Positions 26,209 to 37,122 of a stretch of DNA of 41,076 bases are shown piece after piece (position 1 is the stretch's first letter; every line of letters begins with the position of its first letter). Made by a program: the position numbers and the translations under genes. The notes beneath the pieces were generated by a model. It was not told where the DNA came from. It was given only the letters and a program-made list of their open reading frames with translations, and made no database searches. Source of the stretch: an uncultured Eubacteriales bacterium (lineage in GTDB: Bacteria; Bacillota; Clostridia; Christensenellales; Aristaeellaceae); the NCBI GenBank assembly GCA_902764285.1, contig CACWVN010000005.1, forward strand, positions 1 to 41,076. Direction: 5' to 3'.

Positions 26209-26232
26209 AAAAGCGGGCATGCCCGCTTTTTT
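26207..26232. terminator. Bidirectional terminator between vanZ-like and azlD
   Basis: AAAAAAGCGGGC (26207-26218), AT, GCCCGCTTTTTT (26221-26232). Works on both strands and overlaps the stop codons of both genes. Confidence 0.95.
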
Positions 26233-32550: not shown

Positions 32551-34998
32551 GTGGAATTTGAACGGATGAGCGTCAAACAAATCAAGGACAGCATTCGCAA
32601 CAAGCTGCACACGCAGTTCGCCTGCGACGTCAGCGATGCCACGCCCGAGCAGCTTTACCAGTCTCTGGCCATGGTGGTGCGCGATGAAATCATGCAGCGC
32701 CGCAGCTATTCCCGCGACGCGCGCAAGGAGCAGCGTGCCAAAAAGGTCTATTATCTCAGCGCCGAATTTCTGATCGGCCGCGCGCTGCACAACAACATGG
32801 TGAACCTGGTGAACGAGAGCAACTACATGCAGGCCATGGAGGAGCTGGGCATTGACCGCTCCGTGGTGTTTGAGGAAGAGCCGGAGCCCGGCCTGGGCAA
32901 CGGCGGTCTGGGCCGCCTGGCCGCCTGCTTCCTGGATTCCCTGACCACGCTGAAGATGCCCGCCATGGGCTGCACGATCCGCTATGAATACGGCCTGTTC
33001 CGCCAGAAGCTGGTGGACGGCTATCAGGTGGAAGTGCCGGACAACTGGCTGGCCAGCGGCAACATCTGGGAAGTGCCCCACCCCGAAGACACCGTGGAGG
33101 TCCACTTCGGCGGGCGCATCGAAACCGCCAACGAAGACGACCGCATGACGTTCCACCACGTGGATTACAAGACCGTGCAGGCCGTGCCCTACGATATCCC
33201 CGTGGTGGGCTATGACAGCACGAAGGTCAACTTCCTGCGCACCTGGAGCGCCAAGTCGGTCCAGCAGATCGACATGATGCACTTCAACCGCGGCCAGTAT
33301 GTCAAGGCCATGGAGGAGCGCGAGCTGGCCGAGGTCATCTCCAAGATCCTCTATCCCAACGACGACAGCTATCAGGGCAAGGAGCTGCGCCTGAAGCAGC
33401 AGTATTTCTTCTCCTCCGCGTCCATCCAGCACGCGGTGAAGGATTTCATCGACGTCTACGGCTACAACTGGTCCATCTTCCCGGACAAGGTCGCCATCCA
33501 CATCAACGATACCCATCCCGCCGTGGCGCTGCCGGAGCTGATGCGCATCCTGATGGACGATTTCGGGCTGGGCTGGGACAAGGCCGAAAACATCTGCCGC
33601 CGCACCTTCGCCTACACCAACCACACCGTGCTGGTGGAGGCGCTGGAAAAGTGGCCGGAGAGCCTGTTTGCCGAACAGCTGCCCCGCATTTACATGATCC
33701 TGCAGGAGATGAACAAGCGGCTGTGCGCCAAGCTGTGGGACGCCTTCCCCGGCCAGTGGGACCGCATCGGCCACATGGCGATCCTGGCCTACAACCAGGT
33801 GCACATGGCCAACCTGTGCGTCGCCTACACCCATTCCGTGAACGGCGTTTCCGCCATCCACACCGACATCCTGAAGCGCCAGACCTTCCACGATTTCTAC
33901 ATGCTGGAGCCCAGGAAGTTCGTGAACGTCACCAACGGCATCACCCATCGCCGCTGGCTGATGCAGTGCAACCCCGAGCTGTCCAGCCTGATCGACGAGG
34001 CCATCGGCGACGGCTGGCGCAAGGACATGCAGAAGATCGAAGCGCTAAAGCCCTTCGCCAGCGATCCCGCCTTCCAGCAGAAGTTCCGCGAGATCAAATA
34101 TCACAACAAGCTGCGCCTGGCCGATCACGTGTACCGCCACCAGGGCATCGAGATGAACCCCGAGAGCATCTTTGACGCCCAGGCCAAGCGCCTGCACGAA
34201 TACAAGCGCCAGCTGATGAACGCGCTGGGCATCATGATGCTCTACAACGATATCAACGAGCATCCCGACCAGTCCTTCCATTCCCGCACCTTCATCTTCG
34301 GCGCGAAGGCCGCGCCGGGCTATCAGCGCGCGAAGCTGACCATCAAGCTGATCAACGCCGTGGGCGACCTGGTGCGCAGGCATCCCCGCGCCTCGAAGCT
34401 GATCAACGTGGTGTTCCTGGAGAATTACTGCGTGTCCCAGGCGGAGCTGCTGATGCCCGCCACCGAGATCAGCCAGCAGATCTCCACCGCCGGCAAGGAG
34501 GCCAGCGGCACCGGCAACATGAAGTTCATGATGAACGGCGCCGTGACGCTGGGCACCATGGACGGCGCGAACTGCGAAATCTTCGATCAGGTCGGCCCCG
34601 ACAACATCTACATCTTCGGGCTCACGGCCCAGGAAGTGGAACAGGGTTACGCCTCCTACCGCGCGCATGAAGTGTATGAGACCAACCCGCTGGTCCGCCA
34701 GGTGATGGAACAGCTGATCGACGGCACGCTGTGCCCCGAGAATCCCCGCATGTTCCAGGAGATCTACCATTCCCTGCTGTTCGGCGACGGCGGCAATATG
34801 GCCGATCCGTACTTCGTGCTGAAGGATCTGCCGGCCTACATCACCGCGCAGCGGAAGATGATGCGCGATTACGACGACCGCGAACAGTGGCTGAAGAAGG
34901 CCATCATGAACACGGCCAGCTCCGCGGTATTCACGTCCGATCGCTCGATCCAGGATTACAGCGACAAGATCTGGCATTTGAAGCCGTTGAAACTGTGA
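32551..34998 (+). CDS. glgP: Glycogen/starch/alpha-glucan phosphorylase
   Basis: Releases glucose-1-phosphate from alpha-1,4-glucans with inorganic phosphate. The 815-residue protein has the standard length and motifs: YYLSAEFLIGRALHNNM, EPGLGNGGLGRLAACFLDSL, IHINDTHPAVALPELMRI, VNVTNGITHRRWL, AKRLHEYKRQLMNALG, and the cofactor site EASGTGNMKFMMNGA with K658, then GTMDGANCEI. The start is a GTG at 32551, five bases after GGAGGTG; the first ATG is 15 bases later and too far from that site. It has its own promoter. The downstream GH13 enzyme would help degrade the same polymer. Confidence 0.97.
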   Translation: MEFERMSVKQIKDSIRNKLHTQFACDVSDATPEQLYQSLAMVVRDEIMQRRSYSRDARKEQRAKKVYYLSAEFLIGRALHNNMVNLVNESNYMQAMEELGIDRSVVFEEEPEPGLGNGGLGRLAACFLDSLTTLKMPAMGCTIRYEYGLFRQKLVDGYQVEVPDNWLASGNIWEVPHPEDTVEVHFGGRIETANEDDRMTFHHVDYKTVQAVPYDIPVVGYDSTKVNFLRTWSAKSVQQIDMMHFNRGQYVKAMEERELAEVISKILYPNDDSYQGKELRLKQQYFFSSASIQHAVKDFIDVYGYNWSIFPDKVAIHINDTHPAVALPELMRILMDDFGLGWDKAENICRRTFAYTNHTVLVEALEKWPESLFAEQLPRIYMILQEMNKRLCAKLWDAFPGQWDRIGHMAILAYNQVHMANLCVAYTHSVNGVSAIHTDILKRQTFHDFYMLEPRKFVNVTNGITHRRWLMQCNPELSSLIDEAIGDGWRKDMQKIEALKPFASDPAFQQKFREIKYHNKLRLADHVYRHQGIEMNPESIFDAQAKRLHEYKRQLMNALGIMMLYNDINEHPDQSFHSRTFIFGAKAAPGYQRAKLTIKLINAVGDLVRRHPRASKLINVVFLENYCVSQAELLMPATEISQQISTAGKEASGTGNMKFMMNGAVTLGTMDGANCEIFDQVGPDNIYIFGLTAQEVEQGYASYRAHEVYETNPLVRQVMEQLIDGTLCPENPRMFQEIYHSLLFGDGGNMADPYFVLKDLPAYITAQRKMMRDYDDREQWLKKAIMNTASSAVFTSDRSIQDYSDKIWHLKPLKL

Positions 34999-35005
34999 TG
35001 ATTGC

Positions 35006-35028
35006 GGCGGGGGAATCCTTCCCCCGCC
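35006..35028 (+). terminator. Terminator-like hairpin after glgP
   Basis: GGCGGGGGAA (35006-35015), loop TCC, TTCCCCCGCC (35019-35028). No T-run. Confidence 0.7.
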
Positions 35029-35044
35029 ACTGCCACCCCTTTGA

Positions 35045-35189
35045 CAGATTTGACTTGAGTTTTCAGGGAAAACTCCGGCCGTCAAATCTGCAGGGAAGGT
35101 TTTCCCTGAAAACCATGCGACCCTGACGCACATGTCGCCAGGGTCGATTTCAAGTCGGAGGGGATGGATCCCCTCCGACGCCTTCCCTG
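35045..35189 (+). other. Cluster of nested and interlocked inverted repeats
   Basis: Perfect complementary pairs: 35045-35054 with 35081-35090 (10 bp); 35059-35073 with 35099-35113 (15 bp); 35091-35099 with 35181-35189 (9 bp); 35118-35125 with 35139-35146 (8 bp); 35154-35163 with 35170-35179 (10 bp). In addition 35057-35075 and 35098-35114 each fold alone (GAGTTTT-CAGGG-AAAACTC and GGTTTT-CCCTG-AAAACC) with loops that are complementary to each other. The first two pairs interlock, so both cannot form fully at once. Not coding; it could be a structured RNA, an attenuator for the GH13 gene, or a palindromic repeat element. Confidence 0.75.
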
Positions 35190-35229: not shown

Positions 35230-37122
35230 ATGACGTTCTACCACGATTCCCGCGATCCGCTGTATCGCGATCCCCAGGGCGCGGCGCCCTGCGGCCAGAC
35301 CGTGCGCCTGCGGGTAAAGGCCGAGGAGCTGCACGGCGTATGCCTGCGGCTGTGGTGGCAGGAGGCGGAGAGCGTGCTGCCCATGTGCCCCATCCACGGC
35401 GGGCTGTACGAATGCCAGCTGAAGCTGCCGAACACCCCGGGATTGTTGTGGTATTATTTCATCGCCCAGGACAACCGCGGGCGCACCCGGTTCCTCGGCA
35501 ACGCCGCCGACGGTCTGGGCGGCGCGGGGCAGGTGCGCGAGGAAGCCCCCGACGGCTACCAGATCACCGTGTTCGACCCCGCCTATGACACGCCGCGCTG
35601 GATGCGGGACGGCGTGATGCTGCAGATCATGGTGGACCGGTACTGTTGCTCGGGCGAGCGGGACATCCGGAACCTGCCGCCGGCCTCCTATTACCACATC
35701 CGCTGGGATGACGACCCGGCGCTGATCATCAACGACGACAAGTACGGCGACAACTGCAACAACGATTATTTCGGCGGCAACCTGCGCGGCGTCATCGAAA
35801 AGCTGGATTACATCCGCAGCCTGGGCGTGACGGTGCTCTACTTCAACCCCATCTTCGAAGCCCGCAGCAATCACAAGTACAACACCGGCGACTACATGAC
35901 CATCGATCCCTCCTTCGGCACCGAGGCGGATTTCCGCAGGCTGTGCGCCGAAGCGAAGAAGCGGGGCATGCGCGTGATCCTGGACGGCGTGTTCTCCCAC
36001 ACCGGCTCCGACAGCCTGTACTTCAACCGCGACGGCAGCTACGGCCCCGGCGGCGCCTACAACGATCCGTCGTCCCCCTACCGGGAATGGTACCGCTTCC
36101 GCCACTGGCCGGATGATTACGAATGCTGGTGGAATTTCAAGACGCTGCCCAACGTGAGCGAGGAGACGCCCAGCTATCAGGATTTCATCATCGACCGCGA
36201 CGACAGCGTCATCGCCCACTGGCTGCGCGCCGGCGCGGCGGGCTGGCGGCTGGACGTGGCCGACGAGCTGCCCATGGCCTTCATCCGCAAACTGCGCCGG
36301 CGCATCCGCCGGGAACGGCCCGACGGCGCGCTGATCGGCGAGGTGTGGGAAGATCCCACCAACAAGGTCGCCTACGGCGAGATGCGCTGCTACTGTCTGG
36401 GCGATACGCTGGACAGCTGCATGAACTATCCGCTGCGCGACGCCATTGTGGAATTCCTGTGCTGCCGGGCGGACGCCTTCGCCCTGGTGCGCAAGATGGA
36501 AAGCCTGCGGGAGAACATGCCCGCGCCGTTCCTCTATTCCGAAATGAACCTGCTGGGCAGCCACGACACGCCGCGGATCATCAGCATGCTGGCGGACATC
36601 GGCGATATGGCGCCCGACCGCGTGTACCGGCATCCCTTCGCGATGGACCCGGAGGACTACGCCCGGGGCCGCCGGCGGCTGATCGCCGCGTGGGCACTGG
36701 TGTGCGCGCTGCCGGGCATGCCCTGCCTGTATTACGGCGACGAAGCCGGGCTGACCGGCATGGCGGACCCCTACAACCGCGCCACCTACCCCTGGGGCCG
36801 CGAGGACGCCGAGCTGGTATCGGCCATCCGCGGGATCATCCAGGACCGCATGTCCGCGCCCGCGCTGCGCACCGGCGATCTGAAGCTCTCGGCCATCGGG
36901 CCGGACGTGGTGCTGGTGGAGCGCCGGATCTCCGGCGGCCGGGACGTCTTCGGCGCGCCCGCCCAGGACCAGTCCCGCGCGCTGGCGGTGAACCGCTGCG
37001 GCGAACAGCGGCGCATCGAATACGGCGGCCGGGTGTACGAGATCCCGCCGGAATCCGCGCTGCGGCTGGAGCCCGCGCAGCCGAACCGGCATGACGACAA
37101 CCGGGAAAACTGGAGAAACTGA
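35230..37122 (+). CDS. GH13 alpha-glycosidase, neopullulanase/cyclomaltodextrinase-like
   Basis: Hydrolyses alpha-glucosidic bonds in maltodextrins or related glucans. The 630-residue protein lacks a signal peptide, so it is cytosolic. It has an N-terminal beta domain (about 1-115) as in GH13_20/21 enzymes, then a TIM barrel with GVTVLYFNPIFEARSNHKYNTGDY, VILDGVFSHTG, GWRLDVADE (nucleophile D342), IGEVWED (acid/base E371) and LLGSHDTPR (D446), and a short C-terminal beta domain. ATG at 35230 follows AGGAGTGA. It lies after glgP with a heavily structured intergenic region, and ends in a strong bidirectional terminator. Exact linkage specificity is not deducible. Confidence 0.94.
   Translation: MTFYHDSRDPLYRDPQGAAPCGQTVRLRVKAEELHGVCLRLWWQEAESVLPMCPIHGGLYECQLKLPNTPGLLWYYFIAQDNRGRTRFLGNAADGLGGAGQVREEAPDGYQITVFDPAYDTPRWMRDGVMLQIMVDRYCCSGERDIRNLPPASYYHIRWDDDPALIINDDKYGDNCNNDYFGGNLRGVIEKLDYIRSLGVTVLYFNPIFEARSNHKYNTGDYMTIDPSFGTEADFRRLCAEAKKRGMRVILDGVFSHTGSDSLYFNRDGSYGPGGAYNDPSSPYREWYRFRHWPDDYECWWNFKTLPNVSEETPSYQDFIIDRDDSVIAHWLRAGAAGWRLDVADELPMAFIRKLRRRIRRERPDGALIGEVWEDPTNKVAYGEMRCYCLGDTLDSCMNYPLRDAIVEFLCCRADAFALVRKMESLRENMPAPFLYSEMNLLGSHDTPRIISMLADIGDMAPDRVYRHPFAMDPEDYARGRRRLIAAWALVCALPGMPCLYYGDEAGLTGMADPYNRATYPWGREDAELVSAIRGIIQDRMSAPALRTGDLKLSAIGPDVVLVERRISGGRDVFGAPAQDQSRALAVNRCGEQRRIEYGGRVYEIPPESALRLEPAQPNRHDDNRENWRN

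Follow-up and report, generated by a model that had tools for sequence, protein, structure and literature searches.

It is an old suspicion that dispersed palindromes influence the decay and translation of mRNA, and the repeat described here shows, in its old copies, near-strict sense orientation and anchoring at stop codons. A REP consists of one short hairpin (20-40 nt) and has a 5' tetranucleotide. Integron attC sites are characterized by folding of the bottom strand, by R boxes, and by their association with cassette arrays and an integrase. In E.coli, translation can be lowered by REPs whose distance from a stop codon is below 16 nt, as reported in PMC12306157. According to the same source 446 of the 4,072 E.coli REPs (about 11%) counted with RepRanger lie within that distance, and an earlier study cited there placed 260 of 496 near a stop. 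Folded repeats have also been proposed to act as barriers to 3'-5' exonucleases, ERIC sequences can destabilize transcripts in one orientation, and RNase III is able to cleave Correia elements (all in PMC3049150).

The window, by which we mean the whole stretch of 41,076 nucleotides that was analysed, carries a highly structured segment between glgP and a gene of the GH13 family (Table 1). The predicted RNA fold of this segment (196 nt) had an energy of -97.6 kcal/mol, as compared with -63.7 (sd 4.4) for 200 shuffles, none of which folded as well (z -7.8); the opposite strand gave -106.9 kcal/mol and z -7.3. The inverted repeats which an earlier note had described in this gap are thus real. 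Its pair A (35045-35054/35081-35090, 10 nt) and pair B (35059-35073/35099-35113, 15 nt) are both 100% complementary, and its third, long-range pair (35091-35099/35181-35189) lies inside a 13-nt pair of 92% complementarity. The minimum-energy fold contains pair A and the third pair, and in this fold each arm of B folds by itself, as had been proposed. The 15-bp helix between B and B', if forced, costs just 4.2 kcal/mol, therefore the alternative state is, by this calculation, physically possible in the window copy. From P1 to P5 the window copy measures 174 nt. In another part of the window, at 26209-26230, a perfect palindrome (AAAAGCGGGCATGCCCGCTTTT) sits exactly between two convergent predicted genes, placed as a bidirectional terminator would be.

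Table 1. Genes and structural parts of the repeat copy in the window
Feature	Position	Strand	Evidence and remarks
Upstream gene glgP, glycogen/starch phosphorylase	32551..34998	+	Pfam PF00343 Phosphorylase, 1020 bits; gene model; stop at 34998
P1, GC-rich hairpin	35006..35028	+	arms 35006-35015/35019-35028; begins 7 nt past the glgP stop codon
Linker CTGCCACCCCTTTGA, largely conserved, unpaired in model	35030..35044	+	alignments A1 and A3
P2 (pair A, 10 bp) around inner hairpin P2b	35045..35090	+	paired arms
P2b, inner hairpin within P2	35057-35075	+	P2 internal loop asymmetric (TT / CGGCC)
P3, variable hairpin, short form in window copy	35098..35114	+	27 nt including the linker, ranking third shortest among 101 copies
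P4, hairpin with 7-nt loop CACATGT and near-invariant CG..CG collar	35118..35146	+	arms 91% over 11 nt
P5, terminal hairpin, 12 bp	35154..35179	+	arms 35154-35165/35168-35179; many of the other copies, though not all, have a similar hairpin after P4
Match to covariance model R1, linker to P4	35029..35146	+	119.6 bits, E 1.9e-26, the window copy being among the 8 sequences R1 was built from
Downstream gene, GH13 alpha-amylase family	35230..37122	+	Pfam PF00128 Alpha-amylase, 169 bits; gene model; predicted start 35230

When the genome from which the window derives (G000; 2.82 Mb, 176 contigs) was searched at the nucleotide level, the stretch was found again on nine other contigs with 70-87% identity (E below 1e-4). 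A covariance model (R1) was built from 8 copies including that in the window. It recovered 14 strong copies (E below 1e-9) in this genome, and at E <= 0.01 it matched 31 genomes in a set of 60 made up of G000 and 59 relatives. Within the genus 25 of 28 genomes matched, with 0 to 59 copies each (lower bounds, obtained with strict filters); three had no match at all, and the element is therefore dispensable. Among other members of the family 4 of 8 genomes matched, with strong signals in G028 (32) and G033 (52), and beyond the family only weak matches were obtained, in 2 of 24. A larger sample of the family gave matches at E <= 1e-5 in 72 of 200 genomes, spanning 24 of 50 genera. In a sample of the order (297 genomes, family members included) 8 matched at E <= 1e-6, of which 4, belonging to 3 genera, were from outside the family. 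The exact core pattern was present in 21 named records, all metagenome-assembled genomes from uncultured Clostridiales or Clostridia, the names of which contain RUG or Roe_deer_Rumen. The element is a five-hairpin repeat scattered through the genomes of one family of uncultured bacteria that includes rumen inhabitants, and we have next to no doubt that the stretch in the window is one copy of such a dispersed structured repeat. The search for further copies in the genome and its relatives, which the earlier note had recommended, thus pointed to a repeat element, the many copies lying beside unrelated genes.

No Rfam 15 family scored above the gathering cut-off at eight loci of the same genome, and the best sub-threshold match in a permissive scan of the window stretch was a microRNA hairpin with 19 of 90 bits. 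A T-box-like motif spotted by eye on the other strand (AGGGGTGGC) was dropped, as the Rfam scans were silent. Distant blastn found no match to the window copy in plasmids and phages, and the exact pattern had 0 matches in viral_contigs; a phage, plasmid or virus as the carrier was rejected on these grounds.

Along the genes, the order of elements is stop codon, P1, linker (CCACCCCTTTG), P2, CAAGG, P3, P4, in many copies P5, and the ribosome-binding site of the next gene. P2, which is the pair A of the earlier note, is a helix of 10 bp that has an asymmetric internal loop (TT or CT on the sense side versus CGGNC); the sequence of its inner hairpin P2b changes between copies, as does the length of P3. 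The 7-nt loop of P4 mostly reads N-R-C-A-Y-G-Y: with a crude pattern, C was found at position 3 in 88 and G at position 6 in 92 of 99 copies of alignment A3 (101 copies, all but two of which are from the genus). Unpaired CAAGG recurred in 76/101, 57/85 and 45/61 copies of three sets, and the internal-loop pattern in 92/101, 55/85 and 45/61. The copies in G000 have a median pairwise identity of 0.63 (maximum 0.80) and an intact architecture; judged by this divergence they are old.

Over 99 distinct copies P2 was paired in 99.0% and P4 in 88.9% of the cases, and double-sided changes occurred at 7/10 and 7/11 pairs, respectively, i.e. at 14/21 pairs of the two helices together. The covariation score, counted on model-fitted alignments, which leans towards structure, was 0.362, as compared with 0.116 in shuffles (0/500 reached the observed value) and at most 0.093 with slid partners. 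Two other alignments, with 74 and 60 distinct copies that were almost all additional ones, drawn from G009, G025, G028, G033 and other genera, again showed covariation. One of the five measures, the number of further pair types, did not exceed the shuffles (68/500 in the first alignment, 84 and 232/500 in the other two). The compensatory changes that had been suggested as a sign of a functional RNA were thus present for helix A and for the hairpin P4; they were, however, spread over a dispersed family and not confined to this locus.

Other features of the window copy did not extend to the family. Its interlocked A-B-A'-B' pairs, regarded in the earlier note as a switch, exist, but the 15-nt complementarity on which the second state depends was found in 1/101 copies. 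In the other 100 copies complementarity between P2b and P3 was 8 nt at most (mean 5.12, versus 5.10 for swapped pairings, 0.2% of which reached 10 nt). The proposed kissing loops CAGGG and CCCTG need the same 15-nt complementarity and are therefore private to the window copy. The third pair, between linker and tail, is 9 nt long in the window copy and was at control level in the family (7 nt or more in 5/101 copies versus 3.6% of swapped pairings). Kissing loops, A/B switch and third pair were accordingly rejected as conserved features. A closing pair between the 5' arm of P1 and the tail, suspected by eye, did not exceed swapped controls either and was also discarded.

The orientation of the neighbouring genes was determined with a home-made gene finder based on codon usage. 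Both neighbours were in the sense orientation relative to the element for 85 of the 101 copies in A3 and both antisense for 2; 8 and 3 copies had the two mixed arrangements, and 3 were cut off. When copies sharing a neighbour were collapsed, 65 independent loci were left, with 52 sense-sense, 1 antisense-antisense, 6 and 3 mixed and 3 cut-off cases (52 versus 1, binomial p 1e-14). The distance between the stop codon and the start of the model was 26-38 nt in 70/93 cases. Among 85 copies having a sense gene within 130 nt, P1 was detected in 79, and in 67 of these it started 15 nt or less past the stop codon. The copies stand between gene pairs that usually form operons; judged from the ends of the proteins they presumably include pta-ackA, mraZ-rsmH, rpsO-pnp, fabG-fabF and lepA-hemN, Pfam having been used to check the identity of GlgP and GH13 alone. 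Fifty copies fell into 19 orthologous clusters.

Presence of the element was scored in three orthologous gaps within the genus. A close orthologue of the GH13 gene was found in 20/28 genomes, of which one (G012) had no glgP in reach, leaving 19 loci with both genes. The element was present in 2 of the 19 gaps (G000 and G017), P1 alone was present in G022 and G027, and the other 15 lacked the element, a P1-like half being retained in G021 and G024. The mraZ-rsmH gap contained the element in 4 of 26 readable loci (in 2 of the 28 the upstream gene was missing) and the rpsO-pnp gap in 3 of 25, 1 of 26 being unreadable. When these 74 loci were searched with the model, the element was detected in exactly those gaps in which it had been scored by reading; two matches in L210 (G009) fell outside the rpsO-pnp gap, and one match, in L175, was weak (E 0.004). 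Species thus differ in whether an orthologous gap holds the element, which has therefore been gained or lost between them. This, together with the many copies at unrelated sites, bears out the palindromic mobile repeat that the earlier note had offered as one of its two explanations. Of 54 pairs of copies at orthologous sites, 23 were 70% alike or less, near the median of unrelated copies, and some sites may therefore have been hit or converted repeatedly.

The same gaps had some further peculiarities. Two rpsO-pnp gaps, L195 (G019) and L202 (G026), contain two copies of the element with the pnp leader between them; as read by eye, P1 has been lost from the second copy in G019, and P2 and P3 from the first copy in G026. 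A leader-like RNA with the core GGACGCCAGGRTG precedes pnp in all 25 readable loci of the genus (L195-L219), and its folds, made for 24 loci, have a G-U bias to the sense strand (62 vs 10). In several genomes the glgP-GH13 and mraZ-rsmH gaps hold other palindromic fillers, e.g. arrays of GGGAACAGG or GGGAGTAGG with inverted partners, or hairpins around CTTCGCT...CTCAGAATGAC.

The genome G025 had 99 matches (E <= 0.001), many of them at contig ends, and 89 of 630 sampled pairs of copies were at least 95% alike. These copies are enclosed by 16-bp inverted repeats (AAATTCTGATTTGTCG/CGACAAATCAGAATTT), and 12 of them were full-length with up to 2 mismatches per end of the terminal repeat. The terminal 16-mer, again with up to 2 mismatches, has 654 sites in this genome; it also occurs without the element, and among 100 places listed there were 15 head-to-head pairs 5 to 9 nt apart, forming small palindromes. 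Outside G025 a good left terminus was found in one copy only (in G018), and the terminus was not seen at the window copy or at other copies of G000. No target-site duplication was detected for the 12 full-length copies, the flanks of which matched over 0.42 nt on average, versus 0.58 nt for mispaired flanks. In several G025 copies (L283-L286, L281, L282, L256) a short insert, CCTAAAGGACTAGCTTCGCGTCGC or a close form, is located in the loop of P2b, P3 or P4, and its reverse complement sits in a hairpin downstream of some copies. This small repeat apparently inserts into the loops of hairpins, with nested palindromes as the outcome.

Genomes with at least five sampled copies were grouped by their median copy-to-copy identity, and co-directional sites were counted after removal of duplicate entries (L056, L257, L265 and, in some counts, one further duplicate). 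The old class (identity below 0.70, 9 genomes) had 85 sense and 4 antisense copies, and the middle class (0.70-0.85, 4 genomes) 27 and 8. The young class (0.85 and above, 3 genomes), which rests mainly on G025, whose young form has extra outer repeats, had 6 sense and 9 antisense copies, i.e. no orientation bias. In Fisher tests the old class differed from the young with p 1e-6 and the middle from the young with p 0.02, the trend being one between different genomes, which differ in other ways too, and using the part of the copies that scored best with one model (37 of 99 matches in G025, 29 of 73 in G033, 11 of 33 in G028 and 8 of 48 in G009). Small young genomes outside the classes (G101, G135, G089; 6 copies) had 3 sense and 0 antisense copies; with these added the young ratio was 9 to 9, and old versus young gave p 7e-6. 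The excess of sense copies among old but not among young ones is suggestive of insertion without, and retention with, an orientation preference, and we find it somewhat more probable than the opposite that the orientation bias arises after insertion.

The reading that accounts best for these observations, to which we give about an even chance, is a palindromic mobile repeat that is kept in the sense orientation between co-directional genes and acts in cis on mRNA. The repeat would have spread as palindromic mobile DNA, and selection would have kept old copies between co-directional genes, in sense and mostly with P1 a few bases past the stop codon. If the gene pair is an operon, the element would be transcribed with it. 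The array of hairpins behind the stop codon could then protect the upstream message against 3'-to-5' exonucleases, and/or delay ribosomes that are terminating there, in either way separating the expression of the upstream gene from that of the downstream gene. The element would then probably function as a cis-acting structure of intercistronic mRNA. We infer the effect on mRNA from the likeness to the E.coli REPs near stop codons and to folded repeats proposed as exonuclease barriers, as these are described in the two sources cited above, and put its probability slightly below one half. A more far-reaching version, that a mobile palindrome has been turned genome-wide into a standard mRNA element behind stop codons, with copies landing in either orientation and, over time, only sense ones in that position surviving, can be put forward just tentatively. 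If it is true, one structured intercistronic module, tuning mRNA decay or the behaviour of the termination codon, has come to be common to unrelated operons such as those of acetate kinase, PNPase and cell-wall genes. Whether genomic parasites become RNA regulatory parts is a question that comparison of species and reporter constructs can address.

The same data could also be produced by a selfish palindromic repeat having no function for the host. The orientation bias would then come from purging of harmful antisense copies, or from insertion into transcribed DNA behind stop codons, and the compensatory changes would be due to palindrome correction during replication. Such a repeat is in accord with copy numbers that range from 0 to 59 among the species of a single genus, with gaps holding P1 only, and with the unoriented young copies of the three genomes sampled; the rarity of G-U pairs in P2 (see below) fits correction at the level of DNA. 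However, palindrome correction cannot maintain the recurrent unpaired motifs, CAAGG and the internal loop, old copies have retained the architecture at 63% identity, and the position behind stop codons exceeds what mere tolerance predicts. We therefore regard a purely selfish repeat as a serious but rather unlikely explanation.

If the sense RNA were selected, G-U wobbles would be expected on the sense strand. In P2 there were 6 G-U and 8 A-C cells among about 990. For isolated 1x1 mismatches in the whole element, the genus set had A-C in 43 and G-U in 14 distinct contexts (p 1.5e-4; raw counts 74 and 20). In G033 the distinct contexts numbered 10 for A-C and 2 for G-U (raw counts 12 and 16), and the numbers in G025 (2 and 0) and G028 (none) were too few. 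The pnp leader, used as an RNA control in the same genomes, had 49 G-U and no A-C, the reverse of the element. The outermost pair of P4 showed the opposite tendency, being U-G in 24 of 67 cells of alignment A4. On balance, the strand opposite to transcription pairs better, and this is the main result against a function of the sense RNA; the asymmetry may partly reflect the C-richness of the top strand. Because of the A-C over G-U asymmetry, palindrome correction and a role of bottom-strand DNA were both kept as rivals. In the latter case the folded single-stranded bottom strand would be the working form, serving as a substrate of recombination or transposition like attC or the IS200/REP hairpins. 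The bottom strand had the lower folding energy in 98/101 copies, although base composition accounts for 8.2 of the 11.9 kcal/mol of this advantage, and the 16-bp inverted termini without target duplication in the full-length G025 copies would suit such a substrate. Genes of Y1 transposases (PF01797), the family to which we take the RAYTs (TnpA-REP) to belong, do not track the copy number of the element. They were found in 16 of 28 genomes searched; at E <= 1e-4 there were none in G000 (14 copies) or in G009 (42 to 48 copies; 83% complete), and nine matches in G027, which has no element. A RAYT/IS200 enzyme was therefore rejected as the mobilizing activity, and a working bottom strand appears to us distinctly unlikely.

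A transcription terminator or attenuator between the genes would be in line with strong GC hairpins directly behind stop codons, and some BIMEs located in operons are reported to act as attenuators (PMC3049150). Nevertheless, a scan of the window copy for intrinsic terminators (a GC hairpin followed by a T run) found none on the + strand and one terminator-like site on the other strand, and the copies lie between genes usually forming operons, which makes this explanation very improbable. A riboswitch-like RNA specific for the GH13 gene and switching between the interlocked A and B pairs, i.e. the regulatory RNA for the second glucan gene of the earlier note, is scarcely conceivable and is already refuted as a conserved mechanism, since, in spite of the interlocked pairs and an alternative state only 4.2 kcal/mol worse, the B-B' complementarity is unique to the window copy, 15 of 19 glgP-GH13 gaps lack the element, two more have P1 only, and the element is present at many unrelated genes.

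In a full-text literature search (titles and beginnings of abstracts), in which Clostridia were thinly covered, making it a weak test of absence, no description of the repeat was found. In comparison with known systems, a gene-specific leader or riboswitch differs from the element, which occupies 2 of 19 glgP-GH13 gaps and has unrelated neighbours elsewhere. Unlike integron attC sites, the element sites examined are between conserved gene pairs, not in cassette arrays. The G025 copies resemble MITEs in being bounded by 16-bp inverted repeats and in being, many of them, near-identical, but they differ in the lack of a target-site duplication in the 12 full-length copies and in the occurrence of the terminal repeat without the element. 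ERIC and Correia sequences, compared by description alone, are likewise folded repeats found in operons (PMC3049150), although in different hosts.

The likeness is closer to BOX and to REP/BIME. As described in PMC3049150, to which this comparison is confined, the BOX repeats of Streptococcus pneumoniae are modular, highly folded, dispersed and in places co-transcribed, and have a variable middle module. BOX, however, follows the coding bias (leading strand, 60.8%) and is enriched between convergent genes, whereas the present element is mostly located between co-directional genes, in sense. With the enterobacterial REP/BIME sequences it shares the character of dispersed intergenic palindromes and, as far as reported, the presence of a fraction of the copies within 15 nt of stop codons. 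In contrast to these it is about 175 nt long, has five distinct hairpins with recurrent internal-loop and loop motifs, is strongly sense-oriented in its old copies, and shows no matching pattern of Y1 transposases. Anchoring at stop codons amounts to about 11% (or 260/496) of REPs in the published counts, versus 67/79 measurable copies of the element. The element thus works like repeats of the REP/BOX type yet fails the tests for Y1 transposase and target duplication, and it is more strictly oriented and positioned than has been reported, in the sources cited, for BOX or REPs.
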